The notes below the pieces were generated by a model. That model searched no databases. It was not told where the DNA came from and saw nothing but the letters and a program-made list of their open reading frames with translations. DNA of 64,000 nt from Photobacterium sp. TLY01 (GTDB taxonomy: Bacteria > Pseudomonadota > Gammaproteobacteria > Enterobacterales > Vibrionaceae). The stretch covers positions 372,001 to 436,000 of the forward strand of contig NZ_CP090365.1 in the NCBI RefSeq assembly GCF_021432065.1, written 5' to 3'. Shown piece by piece: positions 19,374-35,901 of this stretch; positions within the stretch are counted from its first letter, which is position 1, and each line of letters starts with the position of its first letter. The position numbers and the translations under genes are program-made.

Positions 19374-19791
19374 ATGACTATAAAAAAGGTTTTATTTTTA
19401 ATAGCCGTTTTATCTGCTGTTGTAATTTCTTATGCCTTTTTTTACCTTTTCCTCAATCTGAATGTCGCCACTATGCAGGTGAAATGCTCATAGGTGAAGA
19501 AATTACAACTTTCAATTTTTCGCTCAGAGCGAAAACCGTCGAACTAGCGACAACATTTAACCTACCGTTACAAAAGCTAGGTATGCCGAGTGAAATATTA
19601 TATAATTTCAAATACTTGATGTTACTCATCAAGAAGGCGTTTGGCGCTATCACTTAAAAGAGTCAAGCAGTAATTTGCTGCAAGAATTTGAAATCACGCC
19701 AGATGGTGATCGTTATTCAATTCGTTGGGTCAATGATCGAGTAAACAACATAGTTTACAAATGCACGGAATTAGATGATGCAGCACTTTAA
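19374..19791 (+). pseudogene. Frameshifted gene for a small membrane-anchored or exported protein
   Basis: Read in three successive frames this gives one coherent protein of about 138 residues. It starts with a signal or anchor (MTIKKVLFLIAVLSAVVISY) at 19374 and shifts frame in the T7 run at 19437-19443, where one more T would restore LPFPQSECRHYAGE. It shifts again near 19613-19620 and ends ITPDGDRYSIRWVNDRV...ELDDAAL at 19791. The final codons overlap the start of the next gene by 17 bases, as expected for an operon. Both breaks look like single-base losses, so either the gene is dead or the assembly has indel errors. I do not recognise the family. Confidence 0.6.
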
Positions 19792-21325
19792 AAAAGTAGC
19801 AATCGCGGTAAGTATATCCTTAGCAGTTACTAGCTGTTCAAGCACAGGAGATTATGGTGACATTAGTACCACTACTGTAATTGGTTGTGCTGGCGGGATG
19901 ATCGTGGGAGGTCTTGCAGGCAAGGCGATTGGTGGGAAACAAGGAATGTGGATCGGTGCTGGTGTTGGCGCGCTAGTCGGTTGCTCGGCTGGTTATTACT
20001 GGGCACAACGTGAAGCAAAACTCGCAGAAGCAGCAGCAAAACATGACGTTGAGGTCGAGTTTGAACGTATCGGTTCGCCAGATGACGACGAAGTCGACAG
20101 TATGGTTGTTGTACAATCAAAAGCGATTATTGAAGCTGAAGAGACTGGCAATACCGAGCAAATCGAAAAAGTGGTGGGTGACTCTGAAGTGGTTGGCCTT
20201 TCTGCAACAGTCAAAGGCGATATCTTCCGCTCAGGACAAACAGATATCTCTAGCACTAAACATAAACGCTTCTTTAGTAAGTACGCTGAGACAGTTAAGT
20301 CAAGTGGTAGTGCAGTATTGATTGTGGGTCATACCGATAATACTGGCTCGGCAAAAATAAATGCTGATGTTTCACTTAAACGAGCTAGCAGCGTGGCGCG
20401 TGAGTTGATTCGTAATGGTATCCCTAAAGAGAATATTTACATTTATGGTGCGGGTGAATCTCAGCCGATTGCCTCCAATAACTCAGCCAAAGGCCGAGCT
20501 GACAACCGCCGTATTGAAGTCGTAACACTGGATAACAAACCTGAATACGTCACCAACTATGTACGATACAAAGCGACGGAGCCTAGCTATGCCAAGCTAA
20601 GAACCACAGATAATATTGCCAAACGTAGTAAAACTGTAAGCCAGCAAGTCGCGAAAGGACTGGCAACCTCTACGCAAAGTACTGCTGCAGTTCATGATTT
20701 GATAAATACAAACAACCGTCGTAGCAGTAGCAATCGTTCTTATGTCGATTTCGGCGGTGAAAACTATCGCGGTGGGGACGAAAACCTATTTGTCTATATC
20801 GGTGCACGCGAGAGCAATAGCTTCTCGCTTATCGGCCAAGCGGTGGCAAATACACTTGAAGAATCATCATGTGTTTATGATGAGCCAAGTGTGACGACAC
20901 TAGTTTTCAAGATCACAGATGATAGCCGCAGCACAACAGACTACCTACCGGGCATGAACCGCACGGCATGGGGCGGCGAGGTGAATGACCACCTTGTCGC
21001 TCTTGCACCATTAGCCGTTGACCGAAGTACATTAGAAGCGACTGAAAGCCCTTCGATTTATGTTTATGAAGATTACGCATCCAACAAGAAAGTTAAACCT
21101 CAAAAAACACAAAGACCCGTTGATGTCAACATTTACAACGGCTCAGAAGGGGTTATCTATCGTGCCTTTGTTCAAGACAAGAACTACCCAATCAAATGCA
21201 TTGATATCGTAGTAGACAAAAAACATAACAAAGGTGTGTTTAGTGCATTTGCGGGAAAAATATACTACCAGGGCCCTAAAGGCCTGATGATAGCAGACTA
21301 TAAACCAGGAAAAATAAAATCATGA
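19775..21325 (+). CDS. OmpA-like lipoprotein with glycine zipper, first intact gene of an uncharacterised module
   Basis: A 516-residue predicted lipoprotein. The signal peptide ends at a lipobox-like VTSC (Cys at about residue 21). Residues about 36-75 form a glycine-zipper segment (GGMIVGGLAGKAIGG, GAGVGALVG). An OmpA-type peptidoglycan-binding domain follows at about 145-255, seen in VGHTDNTGSAKIN, LKRASSVARELI, YGAGESQPIASN and GRADNRRIEV. The last 250 residues are not recognised. ATG codons at 19775 and 19778 are equally possible. The stop overlaps the next ATG (ATGA). By domain content it should sit in the outer membrane and hold the peptidoglycan, anchoring a complex made with the next two products; the complex is inference. 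Confidence 0.75.
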   Translation: MMQHFKKVAIAVSISLAVTSCSSTGDYGDISTTTVIGCAGGMIVGGLAGKAIGGKQGMWIGAGVGALVGCSAGYYWAQREAKLAEAAAKHDVEVEFERIGSPDDDEVDSMVVVQSKAIIEAEETGNTEQIEKVVGDSEVVGLSATVKGDIFRSGQTDISSTKHKRFFSKYAETVKSSGSAVLIVGHTDNTGSAKINADVSLKRASSVARELIRNGIPKENIYIYGAGESQPIASNNSAKGRADNRRIEVVTLDNKPEYVTNYVRYKATEPSYAKLRTTDNIAKRSKTVSQQVAKGLATSTQSTAAVHDLINTNNRRSSSNRSYVDFGGENYRGGDENLFVYIGARESNSFSLIGQAVANTLEESSCVYDEPSVTTLVFKITDDSRSTTDYLPGMNRTAWGGEVNDHLVALAPLAVDRSTLEATESPSIYVYEDYASNKKVKPQKTQRPVDVNIYNGSEGVIYRAFVQDKNYPIKCIDIVVDKKHNKGVFSAFAGKIYYQGPKGLMIADYKPGKIKS

Positions 21326-22920
21326 GTGAACTAACAACTTGGCTATTACTCAATCGTATACTCGTGGTGGGTATCAGCTCAATTATTGTCGCTACCGTTG
21401 TTTACCTAAGTAATCGCGATACCATCAACCTATATTTAAAAACGCTGTACTACCGTCTGCCGTTAATTGGTAAAAACGCTCGCCTATCGAAAAGACTGGA
21501 GCTTGATGATCAGCGCTGGTTTAACTCAGAGCGTGAAGTATGTAATAGCTTTTTGCCTTTCTACGACCAATACAATGCCGACGAGTACCATTACGAGCAA
21601 TCGAGCCGTTACCTAAACAAAATCGGCGACACAGGTATTTCGCCAATGAAATGGTACACTTGGCTTGGTCTATCAATCATGGTTCTAATTGAAGCCGCTG
21701 GTTTTGCTTATGTACTTGCGGGTTTCACTATTCAAGATGGCAGTGAGTCTATTCAAATTCAAGCAGCTGTTGGTATTGCGCTGTTGATCAGTGTGCTGTT
21801 GGTTGGTTTTACCCATGCGATGGGTGGTGAACTATACCGCAACCAACAGATCGGCAAAGTACGTTTGCACTGGAATCATGACCCACAAAAGCCAGGTGTG
21901 ATTGCCCCTGATCTAAACATTGGTTTGAAGTCTAAAACAAATGCACTAGATGACAATCAGCCAAGCTGGCGTCAAATGGCGAACCGTTTAGCAAAAACGA
22001 ATGCTGGCTTCTCTAAGTCTTGGGCAATGAGCATCGTCACAGTTGTGTTTATCTCAATTGTTGCCGTTGGTGCGACATATGTGCGTGGTCAAGTACTTGA
22101 AAAACTCGCTATTGAAGAGATCAGCGGTCATGAGCAAGAAGGCATGGGTAGCGCGTTTGATATTCAAGACCCATTCGCTGAGAGTGCTCCAGCTGAACTA
22201 ACTGCTTATAACGATGAAGCAGAAAACAAAGCATTTAGAGACGCGATCAACGCACACAAACGTGGCGGTTGGATGACATTTATCATGCTCGCGGTAATTT
22301 TTGCAGCGATGCAAGCATATAGTATTTACCTTGGCTTTAAGACAACTTTCTCAGGTAAAGAGTCGCCTGCCGCTTACGATGCGACCTATAAGTTCTCTAA
22401 CGTTAACGCATACATTGAGTACTACGTGGCACAACAAGCCAATGTTGAACGTGCTGCACAAAGCGTTCTATCGCACCTGCAGAGCAAAATCGCGATCAAT
22501 GCGCAGAGAAGTGCCGGCGAGCAACATGTTATTTATGCAGCAAATAACCCTTCGAGCCGTAACTTCTTGAACTACTACAAGCTACGTGCTTTGAAGAACG
22601 CTGAAACACCTGAATTAATCAAAACCCAATACCCAGACTATCAGCCAGCACAACAAGCTGCACCTCAGCCAATGGTACAACCGACAGCTCAGTCAGCAGT
22701 TGAACCTGTTTATCAGCCTGTGCCACAACCAGAAGTGGCATCTACTACTGAATCGTTCCTAAGCGATGTTGATATCATCAATAAAGTGAAAAACAACGAT
22801 CTTGATGGCCTGACAGACGAGCAAGTAATTGCAGCGCTAAAGGCCATTAGCAACGAGCCTAAGCCAGAAACGGCAGAAGAACGTTTAGCTCGCCTGCAAA
22901 AACAAGCGATGACATCATAA
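21322..22920 (+). CDS. Polytopic membrane protein of the uncharacterised module
   Basis: A 532-residue inner-membrane protein of no family I recognise. Hydrophobic segments are visible near residues 8-28, 112-135, 147-168, 235-255 and 316-340. Two soluble regions (about 30-110 and 170-230) and a loop of about 60 residues separate them. The carboxy-terminal 130 residues include a Pro/Gln-rich linker (about 435-475) and a short helical tail (LDGLTDEQVIAALKAIS) reminiscent of a binding motif. There are no ATPase or protease signatures. It is translationally coupled to the OmpA-like lipoprotein and followed 11 bases later by the vWA-like gene, which indicates a three-part envelope assembly. Confidence 0.6.
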   Translation: MSELTTWLLLNRILVVGISSIIVATVVYLSNRDTINLYLKTLYYRLPLIGKNARLSKRLELDDQRWFNSEREVCNSFLPFYDQYNADEYHYEQSSRYLNKIGDTGISPMKWYTWLGLSIMVLIEAAGFAYVLAGFTIQDGSESIQIQAAVGIALLISVLLVGFTHAMGGELYRNQQIGKVRLHWNHDPQKPGVIAPDLNIGLKSKTNALDDNQPSWRQMANRLAKTNAGFSKSWAMSIVTVVFISIVAVGATYVRGQVLEKLAIEEISGHEQEGMGSAFDIQDPFAESAPAELTAYNDEAENKAFRDAINAHKRGGWMTFIMLAVIFAAMQAYSIYLGFKTTFSGKESPAAYDATYKFSNVNAYIEYYVAQQANVERAAQSVLSHLQSKIAINAQRSAGEQHVIYAANNPSSRNFLNYYKLRALKNAETPELIKTQYPDYQPAQQAAPQPMVQPTAQSAVEPVYQPVPQPEVASTTESFLSDVDIINKVKNNDLDGLTDEQVIAALKAISNEPKPETAEERLARLQKQAMTS

Positions 22921-22931
22921 AAGAGATATAC

Positions 22932-23765
22932 ATGAGAAAAGTAACCTTAGCCATATGCGCGGTTCTTGTTGTGAGTCAATTCGCGAATGCCGCCACATTG
23001 CGAAACGATGTTCCAAGCTGTACCAATGAAGTACCGGGTGAATACTATCAATTACCAAATGAGCGTGAACTGTTTATCCTCGTAGATAAAACAATGGCTC
23101 ACTCTCTGGATCAGGAAATCAAATCAGAGCTGTTCCAGAGTGTGAAACGATTTATTCAACCGGGCGACAAAGTTCAACTGGTGGAGTTTTCGTCGTTTGC
23201 GCAGGACAGCTATACCAAAGTGGTATTTAATGGGCAACTTGATACTCAGCTAAGTGATGACCATCGCAGTTATGTGAAGAAATCTGTCCTTAAATCGCTC
23301 GATAAGTGTCTCGATAAGCAGCACAATTATATGCTGAACAAAGTTGGTATCTCACTGAAAGCAGCGTTTCAAGCGCAAGAAAAGCCCACCAATACCGAGT
23401 TAGTTGGCACGCTTAGCGACATTAGTAAGCAAGTGCTAACGCAATCTACTGCAAAGCGCAAAGTGGTACTTCTCATCAGCGACATGCTTGAAAACTCAGA
23501 TATTACGTCGTTCTACAAAAACAACCAAACTCGAGTTATCAGCCCAAAGCAAGAGTTGGAGCGTATCTCAACGTCGCAAATGTTTGCCAATTTTAATCAG
23601 GCTGATATCTATGTGATTGGTACTGGTGTTATTCCTGGTAATCAGCAGTATATCTCTGCGCAAAAGATGAACAAGCTAGAGTCTTTCTGGAAAGATTACT
23701 TCAAGCAGAGTAATGCTAAGCTACTCGGCTTTGGTAAGCCTATGCTACTTGGTGACATTCGCTAA
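22932..23765 (+). CDS. Exported vWA-like protein of the uncharacterised module
   Basis: A 277-residue protein with a Sec signal peptide (cleavage near ANA-AT at residue 20). The mature part resembles a von Willebrand factor A fold: a first strand ELFILVDKTMAHS, a second block DKVQLVEFSSFA, and a late strand KRKVVLLISDMLEN. The MIDAS motif is degenerate (DKTMA where DxSxS is typical), so metal binding is uncertain. Cys residues at about 30 and 118 could form a disulfide in the periplasm. It ends the operon, 17 bases before a strong terminator. The vWA assignment rests on pattern only. Confidence 0.55.
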   Translation: MRKVTLAICAVLVVSQFANAATLRNDVPSCTNEVPGEYYQLPNERELFILVDKTMAHSLDQEIKSELFQSVKRFIQPGDKVQLVEFSSFAQDSYTKVVFNGQLDTQLSDDHRSYVKKSVLKSLDKCLDKQHNYMLNKVGISLKAAFQAQEKPTNTELVGTLSDISKQVLTQSTAKRKVVLLISDMLENSDITSFYKNNQTRVISPKQELERISTSQMFANFNQADIYVIGTGVIPGNQQYISAQKMNKLESFWKDYFKQSNAKLLGFGKPMLLGDIR

Positions 23766-23781
23766 TTTCACTCACTTCCAG

Positions 23782-23803
23782 GGGCAACTTAAGTTGCCCT
23801 TTT
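23782..23803 (+). terminator. Terminator of the envelope module
   Basis: A perfect 9+9 palindrome, GGGCAACTT-AAGTTGCCC, is followed by TTTTGTTG and ends the three-gene operon. Confidence 0.8.
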
Positions 23804-24166
23804 GTTGTCAGCCCTAAACCACCGCCTTGGGCGGTGGTGACTGTTCCTTGGGGCTATTGCCCGAAGGAGTGTCCATTTTAGAAGTAAATCTCCTATTCAC
23901 CACAAGTGAAAGGAAACTAAAAACACGGGTGATTACAGAGGTACATCACATGTATATTGGCGATGTAAATACCACATAATGTGGACGCCGAAGTGTAACC
24001 CTCCCCGAAAAACATGTCGCTAGTAATTAGAGTTTTACCGCTCAATCTACATTTTGTGCAATATGAAAGATTGAAATAGAGCTAAATGTTTAGCCAGATC
24101 ATGTTCATCTGGTTGCGATAGTGTCACCGAAAGTTTTGATATCGACATTAATGGGGGTATTGAAAG
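23804..24166. other. Non-coding stretch between the module and the IS element
   Basis: About 360 bases with no credible gene. It holds a 9-bp GC-rich hairpin (ACCACCGCC-TTG-GGCGGTGGT, 23818-23838) and a 13-base palindrome, CCACATAATGTGG (23972-23984). The sequence may be remnants of mobile DNA, but no known IS end could be assigned by eye. Confidence 0.4.
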
Positions 24167-24229
24167 TGAATAGCCACCGACTTGATAGACACCTTTTAGT
24201 TAGACAAAATGACTAGCAGAGAGGTGCTT

Positions 24230-24508
24230 ATGAGCAGCAAGCGATACCCAGAAGAATTCAAAGTTGAAGCCGTCAAACAGGTTACTGAAAAAGGTCATAG
24301 TGTAGCCGATGTGGCAAATCGTTTAGGGACTACCACGCATAGCCTTTATGCGTGGATTAAACGCTACGGCCCAGATTCCTCCCAGTATCAAGCCAAGTCC
24401 GATGAAAGTGCCGAAATTCGTCGACTCAAAAAGGAGCTGCAAAGAGTCACCGAAGAAAGGGACATATTAAAAAAAGCCGCGGTGTACTTCGCAAGCCAGT
24501 CCGACTGA
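24230..24508 (+). CDS. IS3-family transposase OrfA
   Basis: A 92-residue HTH protein (SKRYPEEFKVEAVKQVTEKGHSVADVANRLG) with a carboxy-terminal leucine-zipper-like helix (IRRLKKELQRVTEERDILKKA). It binds the IS ends and, through a -1 shift at the A7 run 24469-24475, forms the OrfAB transposase. The ATG at 24230 follows AGAGAGGTG. Confidence 0.92.
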   Translation: MSSKRYPEEFKVEAVKQVTEKGHSVADVANRLGTTTHSLYAWIKRYGPDSSQYQAKSDESAEIRRLKKELQRVTEERDILKKAAVYFASQSD

Positions 24509-24555
24509 GGTACGCCTTTATCAAAGCCAATCAAGCTGTTTGGCCTGTTCGACGT

Positions 24556-25380
24556 ATGTGTAAAGTCCTTAGCATCCACCCAAGTGGTTATTATGCTTGG
24601 CTTAAGCAACCCGATAGCAGACAGGAGAAACGGCGTAAATACCTCCTCGGACTCATCAAGCAGTTCTGGCTGGAATCTGGTGGCGTTTATGGCTATCGAA
24701 AAATATACAGTGATTTACGTGATGAAGGTGAATGTTGCGGTATCAACCAAGTTCACCGCTTGATGAAACGAGAAGGCTTACAGTCGCAAAGAGGATATCG
24801 AAAACCCAGGGCCAAAGTGGGCACAGAGAATGTCGTTGTTGCGAATAAGTTGGCCAGGGAGTTCAACCCGACTGCTCCAAATCAGTCTTGGGTGACCGAT
24901 ATCACGTATATAAAAACTCACGAAGGTTGGCTATACCTCGCAGTCGTCGTTGATCTGTTCTCTCGGAGAGTGATTGGTTGGTCGATGAAAAGCAGAATAA
25001 CGAAAGAGCTGGTGTTGGACGCGCTCCTGATGGCGATATGGCGACGCTCACCGTCAGATAAGGTACTCGTGCATTCCGATCAAGGAAGCCAGTATACAAG
25101 TCATGACTGGGATAAATTCTTAAAGCAGCATGGTCTGGAATCAAGCATGAGCCGTCGGGGCAACTGCCATGACAATGCAGTAGCTGAAAGTTTTTTCCAG
25201 TTACTGAAAAGAGAAAGAGTGAAGCGAAAGATCTATTCCACTCGGGAAGAGGCGCGGATGGATATCTTCGAATATGTCGAGATGTTCTACAACGTCAAAC
25301 GCAGACACGGTTCCAATAATCAGTTGTCACCAGTAGAGTATGAAAAGCGGTATGAAGAAAGGTTAATTAGTGTCTACTGA
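24556..25380 (+). CDS. IS3-family transposase OrfB (DDE integrase core)
   Basis: A 274-residue catalytic part counted from its first ATG. The same frame is open upstream to the slippery A7 run at 24469, so the working protein is the OrfAB frameshift fusion. It has an HTH_21 region (SGGVYGYRKIYSDLRDEG) and the rve catalytic core with D in WVTDITYI, D in VHSDQGSQYTS and E in NAVAESFF. The frame is intact, so the element may still be mobile. Confidence 0.92.
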   Translation: MCKVLSIHPSGYYAWLKQPDSRQEKRRKYLLGLIKQFWLESGGVYGYRKIYSDLRDEGECCGINQVHRLMKREGLQSQRGYRKPRAKVGTENVVVANKLAREFNPTAPNQSWVTDITYIKTHEGWLYLAVVVDLFSRRVIGWSMKSRITKELVLDALLMAIWRRSPSDKVLVHSDQGSQYTSHDWDKFLKQHGLESSMSRRGNCHDNAVAESFFQLLKRERVKRKIYSTREEARMDIFEYVEMFYNVKRRHGSNNQLSPVEYEKRYEERLISVY

Positions 25381-25395
25381 GTCGGTGGCTATTCA

Positions 25396-25824
25396 ATTGC
25401 CGGTGCCACAGATACCATCGACATGACAGGACGCGCCTATTATGGCCCTTATCTGGACGATCAAGCGACCACTTCGCAACACCCGCTGTATCAGCACATC
25501 AAACGCCTGAACCAGATCCGCAAGGCGGTGCCGGCCTTGCAGAAAGCGCCGACCAGTCAGGTGAATGAATGGGGGGCTGGCATGAGCTATATCCGGGACT
25601 ATAACAATGGAGAGAGTTATGCCGTGGTGGGATTAAGCAATGCCGGGCAGCAAACCATGACCATCACAGGCGTGCGAAACGGAACCTACCGCGATGCCGT
25701 GACAGGTAACCAGCTGACGGTATCCAACGGTACGATCAGTTTTACCGTGAAAGGCTACAGTGCCGGGATTTACGTGCTGAATGGTCCCGGGAAAATCGGC
25801 AGTGACGGTGAGTTCCTGCGTTAA
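25396..25824 (+). pseudogene. 3' remnant of an alpha-amylase gene
   Basis: The open frame starts directly at the right end of the IS element and encodes the last 142 residues of a GH13 amylase. IAGATDTIDMTGRAYYGPYLDD leads into a beta-sandwich domain C (SYIRDYNNGESYAVVGLSN, GTYRDAVTGNQLTVSNGTISF, YSAGIYVL). No barrel or catalytic residues remain and no 5' portion is found to the left of the IS. The gene was decapitated, most likely by an IS-mediated deletion. A frame-matching ATG at 25423 exists, but a functional product is unlikely. Confidence 0.8.
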
Positions 25825-32723: not shown

Positions 32724-32870
32724 TCAATCTTGGTCGAAGTAGCGGGGGCGTGCGAAATATCTGCGATAAAAACGCTTCCCCAGAGTGTTCAGGCGATTCA
32801 GGTAATAGCCCAGTACCATGCCTGTGAACAGGCTCAGCCCTGCCGTGAGCAGAAAATCATCGATGTTCAT
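32724..32870 (-). CDS. bcsF: Small membrane protein BcsF
   Basis: A 48-residue protein, easily missed because it is so short. It starts MNIDDFLLTAGLSLFTGMVLG with one transmembrane helix (about 6-26) and ends in a basic tail (LGKRFYRRYFARPRYF). E. coli BcsF is a similar single-span protein of about 63 residues that brings BcsE to the membrane and works with BcsG. The ATG overlaps the bcsE stop (ATGA), and bcsG follows after 23 bases. Position, size and topology together give the name; sequence similarity alone would be weak. Confidence 0.85.
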   Translation of the reverse strand: MNIDDFLLTAGLSLFTGMVLGYYLNRLNTLGKRFYRRYFARPRYFDQD

Positions 32871-34447
32871 GATTCACCTTTGATTCGGATGGGTTTCGGG
32901 GTGGCAAAAAGCGCCGCCGCCTCAGGCTGGCGATTGCCTGTTGCTGCAAAAATGGCCGGCTCTGTGGTGATTTTTTTGATTTCAGCAGATACCGGCAAGG
33001 CTTCTTTGCCAATCACTTCCAGCTCTTGTTCAAGTTCATAGGGTGTCGTGATGATGTGAACAGCCCGGAAGAGATCCCGGACCGGAACATCAAAAATATG
33101 ATTGAGCGCGGTCTGAATATCCGTCTGGCGAATGGCGCTGAACAGCACATACAGCGCGTGGTTGCAGGCGGTAATTACATCGCCGTCACGGCGGATATGG
33201 CACAGCCGCAGACATTCCTCCGGCTGCATGCCCGACAGCAATTTGAGCTGAATCAGCACTACACCCAGACGCGGAGAGGTAAACTGCTGCATCACGGTAT
33301 GGCAATACTGGATAAATGTCTGATTATCCAGATAGCCCCTGGCGTGATAGTTCGGGTCATGGAACAAGAGTTCTTCCGTATTATCCGGCAGCGGGCGCGT
33401 CATGTACTGCCCCTGCATGGCTTCAACCTGGCTCATCATCCTGAGAAAGGGCAGGTGATAAGGCACGATTAGGTTCACACCGGCCAGTAACAGAAAGGTC
33501 TCATCTGTATATCGCAGGCATTGTCTGACTTCTCTGATGATGATCTTGAGCTGCGGGCCGGCTTGTTGCCGTAAGTGTAGGCAGTCGGCAGCCAGCTGAC
33601 GGACCGCTTCCGGCGACTGACAGGACAGGATGACGGTGGCGGCATGCGGAATCTGTGGATCACGGATGATCGCGGCATTATTCGCTGCCAGCTGAACATG
33701 CGCAGGATGCGGTATATCTTCATCCAGCACATCCTGGCTCATGATGATCAGCGTTGAGTCATGCGGGTTGCTGAATGCAGGCATACCGGGCGCGGACACC
33801 TGCACCTCGGCCAGCGCATCCTGGGCTGTTTTCTGTAACACAAACCTTCTGTCGGACTGAATACCGTCCGGGTCCGCCCAGAAATGTACCTGGTAGCTGT
33901 ATTTGTTGTCACTGATCATCGTCATGGACGCCAGTCCCGTCAGATGGCGATTCAGCGACAGCAAGGCCGGTGTGAATGAGCTTGCCGTCACCGAACCGTA
34001 TATGAGTAATTGGATAGACAGCTCATGCTGAGTCGCGTATGCGTTCAGCTTGTTTAAAACTATAGTGAGATTATCTTTATTAATATGAGTGAAAAATATA
34101 TCCGGTACAAAAAGAATAGCGAGTGATTTTTTGACACCTTTTAATTTAAGGATGTCATCCAGAAGCAAATGAAAATGGATACCATTTTTTGTTTTGTTCC
34201 TGTTCAGAAATAATCGCCGCTTACATTTTTCTTTTAATGTCGATGCGAGTTGTTCACCTTGCTCTGTGTTCAGGCCAGAGTAAAAGTTATCTTTATTAAT
34301 AAAGCCGATGAACTGATTGTTTTTATTCTGTTTAATAATTGATTTCAGATAATCGATTGCCAGAGTTTTCTGGTCAAAAAGGTTCACATAAAGCGACGGA
34401 AAATTGTTTATTTCGATAAAGTGTGTAAAGTCTGGATTTGTAGACAT
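32867..34447 (-). CDS. bcsE: c-di-GMP-binding cellulose regulator BcsE
   Basis: A 526-residue cytoplasmic protein that binds cyclic di-GMP and boosts cellulose secretion through BcsF and BcsQ. The GIL domain carries the RxGD ligand motif in HIRRDGDVITACN near residues 418-422. The middle part has the degenerate ATPase/receiver-like blocks of the family (HDSTLIIMSQDVL, AATVILSCQS). The carboxy-terminal 60 residues are low complexity and Ala/Pro-rich. The amino-terminal 150 residues are AT-richer and more Lys/Asn-rich than the rest, which is usual for fast-evolving BcsE amino termini. It is first in the minus-strand bcsEFG operon, divergent from bcsRQABZC. Confidence 0.9.
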   Translation of the reverse strand: MSTNPDFTHFIEINNFPSLYVNLFDQKTLAIDYLKSIIKQNKNNQFIGFINKDNFYSGLNTEQGEQLASTLKEKCKRRLFLNRNKTKNGIHFHLLLDDILKLKGVKKSLAILFVPDIFFTHINKDNLTIVLNKLNAYATQHELSIQLLIYGSVTASSFTPALLSLNRHLTGLASMTMISDNKYSYQVHFWADPDGIQSDRRFVLQKTAQDALAEVQVSAPGMPAFSNPHDSTLIIMSQDVLDEDIPHPAHVQLAANNAAIIRDPQIPHAATVILSCQSPEAVRQLAADCLHLRQQAGPQLKIIIREVRQCLRYTDETFLLLAGVNLIVPYHLPFLRMMSQVEAMQGQYMTRPLPDNTEELLFHDPNYHARGYLDNQTFIQYCHTVMQQFTSPRLGVVLIQLKLLSGMQPEECLRLCHIRRDGDVITACNHALYVLFSAIRQTDIQTALNHIFDVPVRDLFRAVHIITTPYELEQELEVIGKEALPVSAEIKKITTEPAIFAATGNRQPEAAALFATPKPIRIKGES

Positions 34448-34930
34448 ATAAAATACCAGTTGCTCGCGATCGGCACTTTTCCCCGCTGTTTAAAGCATGC
34501 AGAGGCACTATCATTGTCAGAACGCGACAGAAAAAGATGTTACTAATATAATCAGATCATATAGAATTCGCTCAAAAAGTCGAATCATTCATCGGTCTCA
34601 TCAGTCTATTGTCTGAAACTCAGAAGGAACTGTCGAGCTGCTTTGGGGTCAATGAATGAATCACGATATTTGATTATGAACTGAAAGGCATACATAATGA
34701 ACTGAAATATGATCATGAAATCCCGGTCTTATCCGTCAGTATTTGTGTCGTCAGTTTTCGCTGATCAAATTAAAAATATGATTTTTTTGTGGATGAATGT
34801 TAATCACGAACAGTCATAAATATAATACAAATAAGTACTTGTTTGTTTTATTGAATATCATGTACTTAAATTAAAATTTGTATGAATGGCATTGATAAAT
34901 TCTGTTAAGTAGTGGTGAATTATTGTGGTC
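34448..34930. promoter_or_regulatory. Divergent promoter region between bcsEFG and bcsRQABZC
   Basis: A 483-base AT-rich gap with no credible gene that must carry promoters for both cellulose operons. Near 34828-34870 there are two AAGTACTT/ATGTACTT-like sequences about 32 bases apart that could be operator halves. No regulator can be assigned by eye; biofilm regulators of the VpsT/VpsR type are the obvious candidates to test. Confidence 0.45.
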
Positions 34931-35119
34931 ATGCCAGCAAAAGATGTTGATGCAATTTATGCATCGTACAACATGACAAATCATGATTATGTTGAATTAA
35001 ATGAAACTGAAAGTTATCGGAAAGTGAAAAACAAGTGGTTGATATTAAAAAGCAAAAAATCACTTCACGGGACCAACCAAGCGAATACAGAAAGCAGTCG
35101 TCAGGCTGATATTGCATGA
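34931..35119 (+). CDS. bcsR: Small cellulose biosynthesis protein BcsR
   Basis: A 62-residue hydrophilic protein directly upstream of bcsQ. The central part, DAIYASYNMTNHDYVELNETESYRKVKNKWLIL, fits the short BcsR (YhjR) family, with an acidic helix followed by a Lys/Trp-containing stretch. In E. coli BcsR forms a complex with BcsQ that regulates the synthase and recruits BcsE. The stop overlaps the bcsQ ATG (ATGA), as in other type II clusters. An in-frame GTG at 34925 is an alternative start. Similarity is modest; the position is the stronger evidence. Confidence 0.75.
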   Translation: MPAKDVDAIYASYNMTNHDYVELNETESYRKVKNKWLILKSKKSLHGTNQANTESSRQADIA

Positions 35120-35901
35120 AAAGGATCGGGATTCTCAGCTTACGTGGCGGTGCCGGGGCGACAACAGTCACAGCGAATCTGGCTCAGGCATTCGTGCACA
35201 TGCAGAAAAATGTGCTGGCTGTGGATGCCGTTCCGGCCAATGTGCTGCGTCTTCATCTCGGTCTGCCGCTCCCCAGTGTGGCGGGGTGGGCCGGACACAT
35301 GTGTGCAAATACTGACTGGCAGTCAGCGGGCTTTGAAAGTCCGCATGGTGTGACATTTTTACCTTTTGGCCAGCTCAGTTCACAGAATGCGCGGCAGTTT
35401 GAAGCGAACCGCAGTCATTATCTTGCTGAGATCATCGACGCGCTCGGGCGTGTTGACCTGGGTGACAATCAGGATCACTGGCAGCTGATTCACCTGGCCT
35501 CGTCGGATCTGATGAGACTGGAAGATGACGCTCTTGCGTCTTTGTTTGATGTCGTGCTGGTGGTGCTCACACCGGATGCCGCCAGTTACAGCGTGCTGCA
35601 AGATGTTGCTGATATCCAGGCGACGATCAACCGGGCTGCTGTCACTGCAAAAGTGCGTTATGTGCTGAATCAGTATCAGCCAGAAACCGAGATCAGCCGC
35701 GATTTCATGCTGGTGATGAAAAATGAGCTGGGCGCTGATCTGTCACCTGTCCTGTTACACAGAGATATTGCTTTGATGGACAGTGTGGCAAATCTGACGA
35801 CAGTGCAGTCGTTTGCTCCAACCAGTCAGGCAGCAAAAGATTATCAGTCACTTGCCTTCTGGTGCATATCGCAACTATCAGCCTTGCAGCTTGTGTCCTG
35901 A
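35116..35901 (+). CDS. bcsQ: Cellulose biosynthesis ATPase BcsQ (MinD/ParA-like)
   Basis: A 261-residue SIMIBI-class NTPase homologue needed for polar cellulose secretion. The amino-terminal P-loop reads LRGGAGATTVTANLAQAF. Relative to the MinD/ParA KGGxGKTT, both lysines are replaced (Arg and Ala), the kind of deviation also known from E. coli BcsQ. The switch II area IHLASSDLMRLEDDAL and the FDVVLVVLTPDAAS strand are recognisable. It overlaps bcsR and ends four bases before bcsA. Confidence 0.9.
   Translation: MKRIGILSLRGGAGATTVTANLAQAFVHMQKNVLAVDAVPANVLRLHLGLPLPSVAGWAGHMCANTDWQSAGFESPHGVTFLPFGQLSSQNARQFEANRSHYLAEIIDALGRVDLGDNQDHWQLIHLASSDLMRLEDDALASLFDVVLVVLTPDAASYSVLQDVADIQATINRAAVTAKVRYVLNQYQPETEISRDFMLVMKNELGADLSPVLLHRDIALMDSVANLTTVQSFAPTSQAAKDYQSLAFWCISQLSALQLVS

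Follow-up and report, generated by a model that had tools for sequence, protein, structure and literature searches.

A mobile three-gene cassette for an OmpA-type lipoprotein, a buried-glutamate membrane protein and a vWA-like protein: a probable envelope-spanning machine in Photobacterium sp. TLY01

ZorAB of the Zorya systems is an ion motor of 5:2 stoichiometry, in which ZorB binds peptidoglycan and ZorA has a cytoplasmic tail (PMC11890865). Transmembrane (TM)-tethered proteins with a von Willebrand factor A (vWA) domain were proposed as force transducers of TolQ-like motors; this is the nearest published idea found for the genes described here (PMC12204202). The diversity of MotAB is described without a vWA protein in passages of another study (PMC12505986), and vWA-MoxR ternary conflict systems can, according to an extract, carry OmpA-type peptidoglycan-associating domains (PMC7159879). 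A stretch of 64,000 nucleotides from Photobacterium sp. TLY01 (NZ_CP090365.1, positions 372,001 to 436,000; hereafter the window) contains three adjoining genes, A, B and C. They are predicted to code for an outer-membrane lipoprotein with an OmpA domain, a polytopic inner-membrane protein and an exported vWA-like protein. The three genes probably build an undescribed envelope-spanning machine. A published description of this module was not found in titles and abstract starts of the open-licence literature.

Joint occurrence of the three genes

A, B and C are intact open reading frames (ORFs) on the plus strand (Table 1). The stop codon of A overlaps with the start codon of B in an ATGA (21322-21325), and an 11-base spacer (22921-22931) separates B from C. 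This confirms the tight coupling described in a first-pass annotation, which had been made from the DNA letters alone. Profile searches located the three genes on one strand in 22 of 22 loci, 20 times in the order A-B-C and twice as B-C-A. The latter order is found in two sister genomes; the order changed and the linkage was kept. The proposal that the genes travel together thus held. Twenty loci were obtained by a B match (the window, four relatives, seven of 20 plasmid records and eight from a sample of 398 genomes spread evenly over the phylum). Two others (L092, L093) came from C matches, once A and B had been found there. Short or second copies were excluded (L001-L006, L016-L024, L035-L045, L079, L080). 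The near-identical sister genomes L033/L034 and L027/L028 were all counted.

Five of 99 relatives, the host genome among them, have B; it is 77% identical in P. galatheae and 60% in Photobacterium sp. Ph5. The 398-genome sample yielded B matches in ten genomes (nine strong, E <= 2.8e-26; one weak) and C matches in eleven (nine strong, two weak). The nine genomes with strong matches are the same for both proteins and every C adjoins B. The weak B match (G100, 7.4e-4) is a protein of 359 amino acids that by eye looks like a secretion or pilus platform protein; it was not counted. Among 72,556 plasmid records, the same 20 accessions carry B and C, with Pantoea, Paraburkholderia, Caballeronia, Aeromonas, Acidiphilium and Aliarcobacter as hosts. 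The module ranges over Gamma-, Beta- and Alphaproteobacteria and Campylobacterota. A DNA search with the Pantoea operon, which would miss distant copies, gave no match in E. coli. Neighbouring genes vary among the loci, plasmid and chromosomal, as judged by eye and from annotation. In the records examined, the module is mostly annotated as an OmpA family protein and hypothetical proteins.

The distances among the A, B and C proteins mirror each other. Correlations were 0.86 for A-B, 0.91 for B-C and 0.95 for A-C (permutation p<=0.0005) in 17 of the 22 loci, L008, L031, L034, L092 and L093 being omitted. At the sequence level, these mirrored distances show joint inheritance. Between the window and the P. 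galatheae copy (L007), the proportion of synonymous differences (pS) is saturated at 0.80-0.94, which makes dN/dS not computable, and that of nonsynonymous differences (pN) is 0.13-0.16 in all three genes. The module is therefore more than chance and its proteins are under constraint. By these comparisons, A-B-C is a cassette that travels together, as a mobile unit, in distantly related bacteria.

Features of the proteins

The lipoprotein signal at the start of protein A ends in SLAVTSC. In 16 of 22 A proteins, the N-terminal region agrees with a loose lipobox pattern. The five proteins off the pattern (L013, L025, L027, L028 and L093) have a Cys behind a hydrophobic stretch, and the A ORF of L092 lacks its N-terminus and lies outside this fit. 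A glycine zipper follows at residues ~33-78 (Pfam Gly-zipper_YMGG, E 7.9e-6, below cut-off). The OmpA domain comprises residues 151-245 (PF00691, E 6.5e-19, 68.5 bits versus a cut-off of 27.2). Ten aligned A proteins all have H186 and R203, and nine have D188; we take these three to be residues of the peptidoglycan site. Domain and alignment bear out the peptidoglycan anchor suspected at first sight. A further conserved domain of ~190 residues at the C-terminus (~320-510) has no Pfam match. The best curated families (NCBIfam) are YiaD-like (1.2e-36) and PA1041-type anchors, both below their cut-offs. Among solved structures, the A profile found YfiB at 1.4e-23, ranked behind YiaD and PA0833 entries. 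Together, the matches support A as a member of the OmpA peptidoglycan-binding family with a predicted lipoprotein signal.

Two other identities of A were rejected. A MotB/ZorB nature disagrees with the lipoprotein signal, and the ZorB match (PADLOC 1.5e-13) is limited to the OmpA domain. The match to type_VI_ompA, considered for a TssL of type VI secretion, is also limited to this domain and reached 73.8 bits versus a cut-off of 139.8. Inspection by eye of the ORFs at 14-30 kb revealed no type VI secretion gene. In Photobacterium sp. Ph5 (L008, 8800-10001), A is broken: the OmpA and C-terminal parts are in different frames and the middle is missing; the B and C frames are open.

Protein B has five hydrophobic segments in the hydropathy plot (residues 9-27, 115-133, 146-164, 236-254 and 320-338). 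Glu124 is located within the second segment and His165 directly behind the third. The long tail (residues 339-532) is predicted to be cytoplasmic. A glutamate in a membrane segment is present in 30 of 30 B-like proteins: 16 B, four stand-alone proteins and ten g1 proteins of the sister operon described below. For L048, the B-like gene was assigned by eye, as it lacked a profile match, and its Glu does not count as independent evidence. A His closes the next segment in 14/16 window-type B and 3/4 stand-alone proteins. All ten g1 proteins have an Asn about one turn before that His position. In Pfam, NCBIfam, PADLOC and PHROGs, no family matched B better than E 0.069, no GGDEF or other output domain was found in it, and none of A, B and C matched an ATPase. 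Solved structures gave six chance matches to B (E 0.38-5.6). A role of B as MotA/TolQ-like subunit was rejected with hhalign values of 1.4-2.0% against the MotA-like g3 of the sister operon. The family scans and this comparison (1.4%) agree with the earlier description of a polytopic core that has neither a MotA nor an ATPase signature. Homology of this core to a known system was not found within the reach of sequence comparison. In Aliarcobacter, B (L009:8977-10584) has zinc ribbons at its end. A protein of 570 amino acids with weak zinc-ribbon matches is encoded directly 3' of C in Photobacterium sp. Ph5 (L008:12401-14113).

Protein C begins with a signal-peptide-like stretch and carries the motifs D52-x-T54, SD184MLENS and FWxxYF. 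Its single family match in the four family databases is at chance level (Pfam E 0.0098). The window sequence alone had no Pfam vWA match, and a profile search found no relative of C among solved structures. The alignment of 31 C-superfamily proteins with 30 vWA stretches by hhalign reached 93.4% (E 2.5e-7, 138 columns); the reversed vWA profile gave 0.5%. These stretches originated from relatives' genomes and were selected by Pfam VWA_2 matches and the DxSxS pattern. In this alignment, DxSxS is matched by D52-x-T54 and the TDG position by S183-D184 of SDMLENS. All 31 C proteins have D52 and D184, and 26 of the 31 have T54. A complete metal ion-dependent adhesion site (DxSxS...T...D) was not found in C; the second Ser lies outside the conserved columns. 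An AlphaFold2 model from three sequences has alternating strands and helices at low confidence (predicted local distance difference test, pLDDT, 54.9; predicted template modelling score 0.59). C is, by profile and motifs, a divergent vWA domain of predicted periplasmic location with a reduced metal site. The exported vWA-like partner, proposed from the letters, was recovered by the profile match.

Sister operons and surroundings of the locus

Two weak C matches led to other architectures. A sister operon with the order g1-g2-g3-g4 was found in 13 loci, of which L064 and L065 are nearly the same. Six of the loci are on alphaproteobacterial plasmids and six in genomes of the same class as G228, presumably Alphaproteobacteria; the last is in a gammaproteobacterial genome (L101). 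The g1 protein has ~480 amino acids and four hydrophobic segments in L064. The TM-anchored, vWA-like g2 aligned with C at 97.6% (E 3.7e-12, 200 columns). The g4 protein is ZorB-like (PADLOC E 1.4e-27 in L049) and its TM helix contains a Glu (GLTxAE or SLTE) in 13/13. The comparison of B with g1 alone reached 12%. Stand-alone B-like proteins connect the two: they aligned with g1 at 98.4% (E 5e-15) and with B at 79.8% (E 1.4e-5), and B aligned with g1 and stand-alone proteins together at 93.1% (E 3.1e-7, 84 columns; reversed control 10.3%, E 0.003). Homology between B and g1 is probable.

Eight of the 13 sister loci have a nuclease, either fused or adjacent. An SNase domain is fused to g4 in L069 and L075, and a GmrSD_C/HNH domain in L049. 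Separate SNase genes lie beside the operon in L064, L065 and L066 (opposite strand), in L076 (same strand) and in L067 (same strand, annotation only). The g4-fused nuclease should face the periplasm by its topology because it follows the OmpA domain. The two SNase-fused MotB/ZorB-like proteins are encoded at L069:2714-4726 and L075:9341-10807; the OmpA part of the latter is below the Pfam cut-off. In L049 (3391-11027), a GHKL/Toprim-like protein of 746 amino acids (weak Pfam matches) is encoded beside g1, C-like, ZorA-like and ZorB-HNH genes. This operon looks like an unlisted Zorya-like system.

Pairs of B-like and C-like genes accompanied by neither partner set were present in six loci (L048, L070, L072, L073, L074 and L100). 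In L102 only, a B-C pair lies directly before a TraG/VirD4-type coupling protein. In L077, other genes accompany the B-like and C-like ones, and g3 was matched weakly. One C search led to 12 places, all examined: six MotAB-like operons, five pairs and L077. A further C search covered 11 of 12 other genomes, G702 being left out. It yielded two window-type loci (L092, L093), one pair (L100), one MotAB-like operon (L101), L102, five loci with C only and L094 at a contig end. Of 24 plasmid records, six were examined.

Table 1 Features of the module and its flanks, in window positions
Feature	Positions	Strand	Description
Broken upstream ORF	19374-19786	+	Remnant of a fourth short gene, hydrophobic N-terminus; pieces in different frames
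Gene A	19775-21325	+	516 aa, OmpA lipoprotein (predicted)
Gene B	21322-22920	+	532 aa, polytopic inner-membrane protein (predicted)
Gene C	22932-23765	+	277 aa, exported vWA-like protein (predicted)
Terminator-like hairpin	23780-23801	+	Directly 3' of C, hairpin scan
Insertion sequence (IS) element	24164-25398	+	Inverted repeats, HTH_Tnp_1 and rve domains; mobile neighbour, outside the module

The host genome has 4.7 Mb in two contigs. The GC content is 0.38-0.46 across five 1-kb blocks at 19-24 kb. It is higher on both sides: 0.55 at 18-19 kb, where most of ackA lies, and 0.51-0.56 at 25-34 kb. The first reading as AT-richer than ackA and the cellulose genes agrees with these values. A shared terminator had also been proposed. 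The hairpin behind C agrees with it; the number of hairpins in this stretch, 7 sites versus 4.3 +/- 2.2 in shuffles, is not significant alone. A second hairpin (23820-23839) has no T run. A scan of this stretch for sigma-70-like promoters gave no match on the plus strand.

The module had been thought to start at 19374. This position belongs to the broken upstream ORF and not to A. An intact homologue of 143 amino acids precedes the P. galatheae copy (L007:8039-8470). With this protein as tblastn query, residues 34-88 and 83-135 matched in two frames (19460-19624 and 19606-19764). It has no Pfam match, and tblastn found it at none of the other loci compared besides the window and P. galatheae.

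The adjoining IS element was confirmed by its inverted repeats (24164-24192 and 25370-25398) and by orfA (24209-24508, HTH_Tnp_1) and orfB (24556-25380, rve). According to its gene make-up, it is presumably of IS3-type. The ORF at 25423-25824, which adjoins the right end of the element, matches Bac_A_amyl_C weakly (Pfam E 7e-4, below cut-off). This weak alpha-amylase C-terminal match suggests that the element inserted into or beside an amylase gene. A GC dip to 0.33 at 34001-35000 lies between an ORF on the minus strand (32867-34447) and one on the plus strand (35116-35901), which is MRP/BcsQ-like by eye.

Proposed function and comparison with described systems

The reading that we favour, with a confidence just short of even, is a trans-envelope complex of A, B and C that is coupled to energy or tension and may protect the cell against DNA or phages. 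Lipoprotein A would hold peptidoglycan from the outer membrane, as supported by its domain, the conserved site residues and the lipobox. A, B and C would join in one complex that links inner membrane, peptidoglycan and outer membrane; linkage and co-divergence make the formation of this complex likely. Periplasmic C would bridge B and A, for which the chances are fairly good, and may open or close the link. A switchable link is proposed because of the reduced metal site and the location of C. Through its buried Glu124, B may turn proton flow or a charge switch into movement. This ion coupling is a tentative assignment; it is considered because the buried Glu is invariant and sister operons bear MotAB. 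The complex would respond to, or act on, a local disturbance of the cell wall. The most likely benefit would be protection against DNA or phages crossing the envelope, which is proposed because of the mobile, patchy occurrence and the nucleases of sister operons. We hold this protective role with considerable doubt. The company of B and C relatives in the sister operon, flagellar-motor-like and DNA-cutting proteins, hints at a role in the exclusion of foreign DNA, and an anti-DNA or anti-phage role is plausible.

Several observations weigh against this reading. A nuclease or ATPase gene was not seen in the window-type operon. The AlphaFold model of B had a pLDDT of 40 and was dropped. The probable homology of B and g1 rests on 84 columns, and g3 resembles MotA/ZorA weakly, with a PADLOC match of 1.3e-5 in L049 and matches to Pfam MotA_ExbB in L049 and L101 that stay below the cut-off. 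C occurs without a B match in five gammaproteobacterial loci (L095-L099), which argues that B and C need not be paired throughout the wide superfamily. By eye, these C-only loci are near uvrD or an M48 protease gene. The mirrored distances cannot separate joint function from the shared descent of a cassette. No B match turned up in 50,697 phage records, and pattern scans of IMG/VR with B and C, three in number and of limited reach because of few patterns, gave no confirmed match. These two results give no indication of phage carriage, and a phage or prophage origin of the module was rejected on them. Defence genes are not enriched beside the module: PADLOC (E <= 1e-15) matched 13 families in 107 flanking proteins and 14 in 108 control proteins. 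The neighbourhood survey suggested in the first-pass annotation thus revealed no excess. The test set comprised 18 loci (eight window-type, six MotAB-like, four others) and excluded plasmid loci and the window; the controls were 18 stretches elsewhere in the same genome set, not paired one for one. The scan does not assign matches to proteins, test and control sets alike contain some spurious high-GC ORFs, and a few proteins of the test set, for instance from L049 and L077, may be operon members. Even so, the P. galatheae copy adjoins type I restriction-like genes by eye; REase_I families match one flanking protein, which the scan does not name.

The same three tiers, an outer-membrane OmpA lipoprotein, a periplasmic protein and an inner-membrane protein, form YfiBNR as described. 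In a relay of this kind, A would sense stress on the outer membrane or peptidoglycan, C would be the go-between and B would signal via its cytoplasmic tail, with no ion coupling. The YfiB structures found by the A profile, although behind YiaD and PA0833, and the long tail of B (339-532), with its zinc-ribbon end in Aliarcobacter, are consistent with a relay. We consider it unlikely: B has no GGDEF or output-domain match, C is vWA-like, a membrane Glu in 30/30 proteins exceeds what a relay needs, and the MotAB-like sister architecture points to energy coupling. The chances are lower for a Tol-Pal/TonB-like force transducer that serves outer-membrane upkeep or transport, not defence. The OmpA domain of A is Pal/YiaD-like, and C homologues are TM-tethered in the MotAB-like architecture, as in the proposed transducers of TolQ-like motors (PMC12204202). 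Window C begins with a signal-peptide-like stretch, however, and B is not TolQ/MotA-like by profile. Tol-Pal is also widely conserved (PMC12204202), whereas the module is patchy (5/99 relatives; 10/398 genomes).

Copies on 20 plasmid records and the coupling-protein gene behind the B-C pair of L102 could indicate an accessory that helps or gates conjugation or another secretion machine. This is improbable, as such a neighbour occurs at one locus only, 15 of the 20 plasmid records are predicted non-mobilizable, and other copies are chromosomal. Annotated transfer genes were absent within 9 kb of five window-type copies, in a gene table that is incomplete. A coincidental or decaying gene group that has no joint function would explain the broken fourth ORF, the adjoining IS element and the broken A of L008. 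The linkage in 22/22 loci, the protein constraint and the mirrored divergence make it extremely improbable.

If the favoured trans-envelope complex is real, two unnamed families, the membrane proteins of B and the vWA proteins of C, would be added to the few machines that work across the entire Gram-negative envelope. A periplasmic defence against DNA entry would then be directly testable with the nuclease-bearing sister architecture. With envelope upkeep as its role, the module would still be a mobile trans-envelope system in several bacterial classes. A wider view is speculative and, in our opinion, rather unlikely: B and C may form the centre of a new superfamily of envelope-spanning machines, whose membrane protein has one buried Glu and drives or gates a periplasmic vWA switch. 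This core would act stand-alone, with a peptidoglycan lipoprotein as in the window, or with a MotAB/Zorya-like motor. The peptidoglycan-binding subunit of the motor can carry a nuclease on its periplasmic side, which would make it a barrier that cuts or blocks foreign DNA before the cytoplasm.

Among the described systems, Zorya shares with the module an OmpA-type peptidoglycan-binding domain tied to an inner-membrane protein. The L049 operon joins C and probable B homologues with ZorA-like (1.3e-5) and ZorB-like (1.4e-27) subunits. The kinship with MotAB and Zorya assumed at first sight does not hold for B itself (1.4%). It holds in another sense, as C homologues and probably B homologues share an operon with subunits like MotA/ZorA and MotB/ZorB in other bacteria. 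Neither ZorA, for which PADLOC gave no match to B, nor a TM-anchored ZorB is present in the window module; A is a lipoprotein and B has no profile similarity to the MotA-like subunit. ZorC, ZorD and ZorE were not seen by eye or in the annotation beside the window operon and five other operons. Zorya is not known to include a vWA protein. Tol-Pal resembles the module in its outer-membrane, peptidoglycan-binding lipoprotein and inner-membrane partner. It differs in that no TolQRAB were seen beside the module, which is patchy, and B is unrelated by profile to the MotA/TolQ-like subunit. In YfiBNR, as described, the inner-membrane protein is a cyclase; B has no GGDEF, C is vWA-like and A has an extra C-terminal domain. 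The systems with vWA force transducers likewise couple a periplasmic vWA domain to an inner-membrane partner (PMC12204202). Their partners are TolQ-like, unlike B; apart from its signal, the C of the window lacks a TM anchor, and passages of that source name no OmpA lipoprotein partner. The vWA of the ternary conflict systems is, in the extract, paired with MoxR/STAND ATPases (PMC7159879), whereas A, B and C match no ATPase. The earlier statement that no described system of this make-up was known agrees with the family scans, the solved structures and the literature. Because each named system that was compared failed a defining feature, the module is, by these comparisons, an undescribed, conserved, mobile and predicted trans-envelope system apart from the known kinds.

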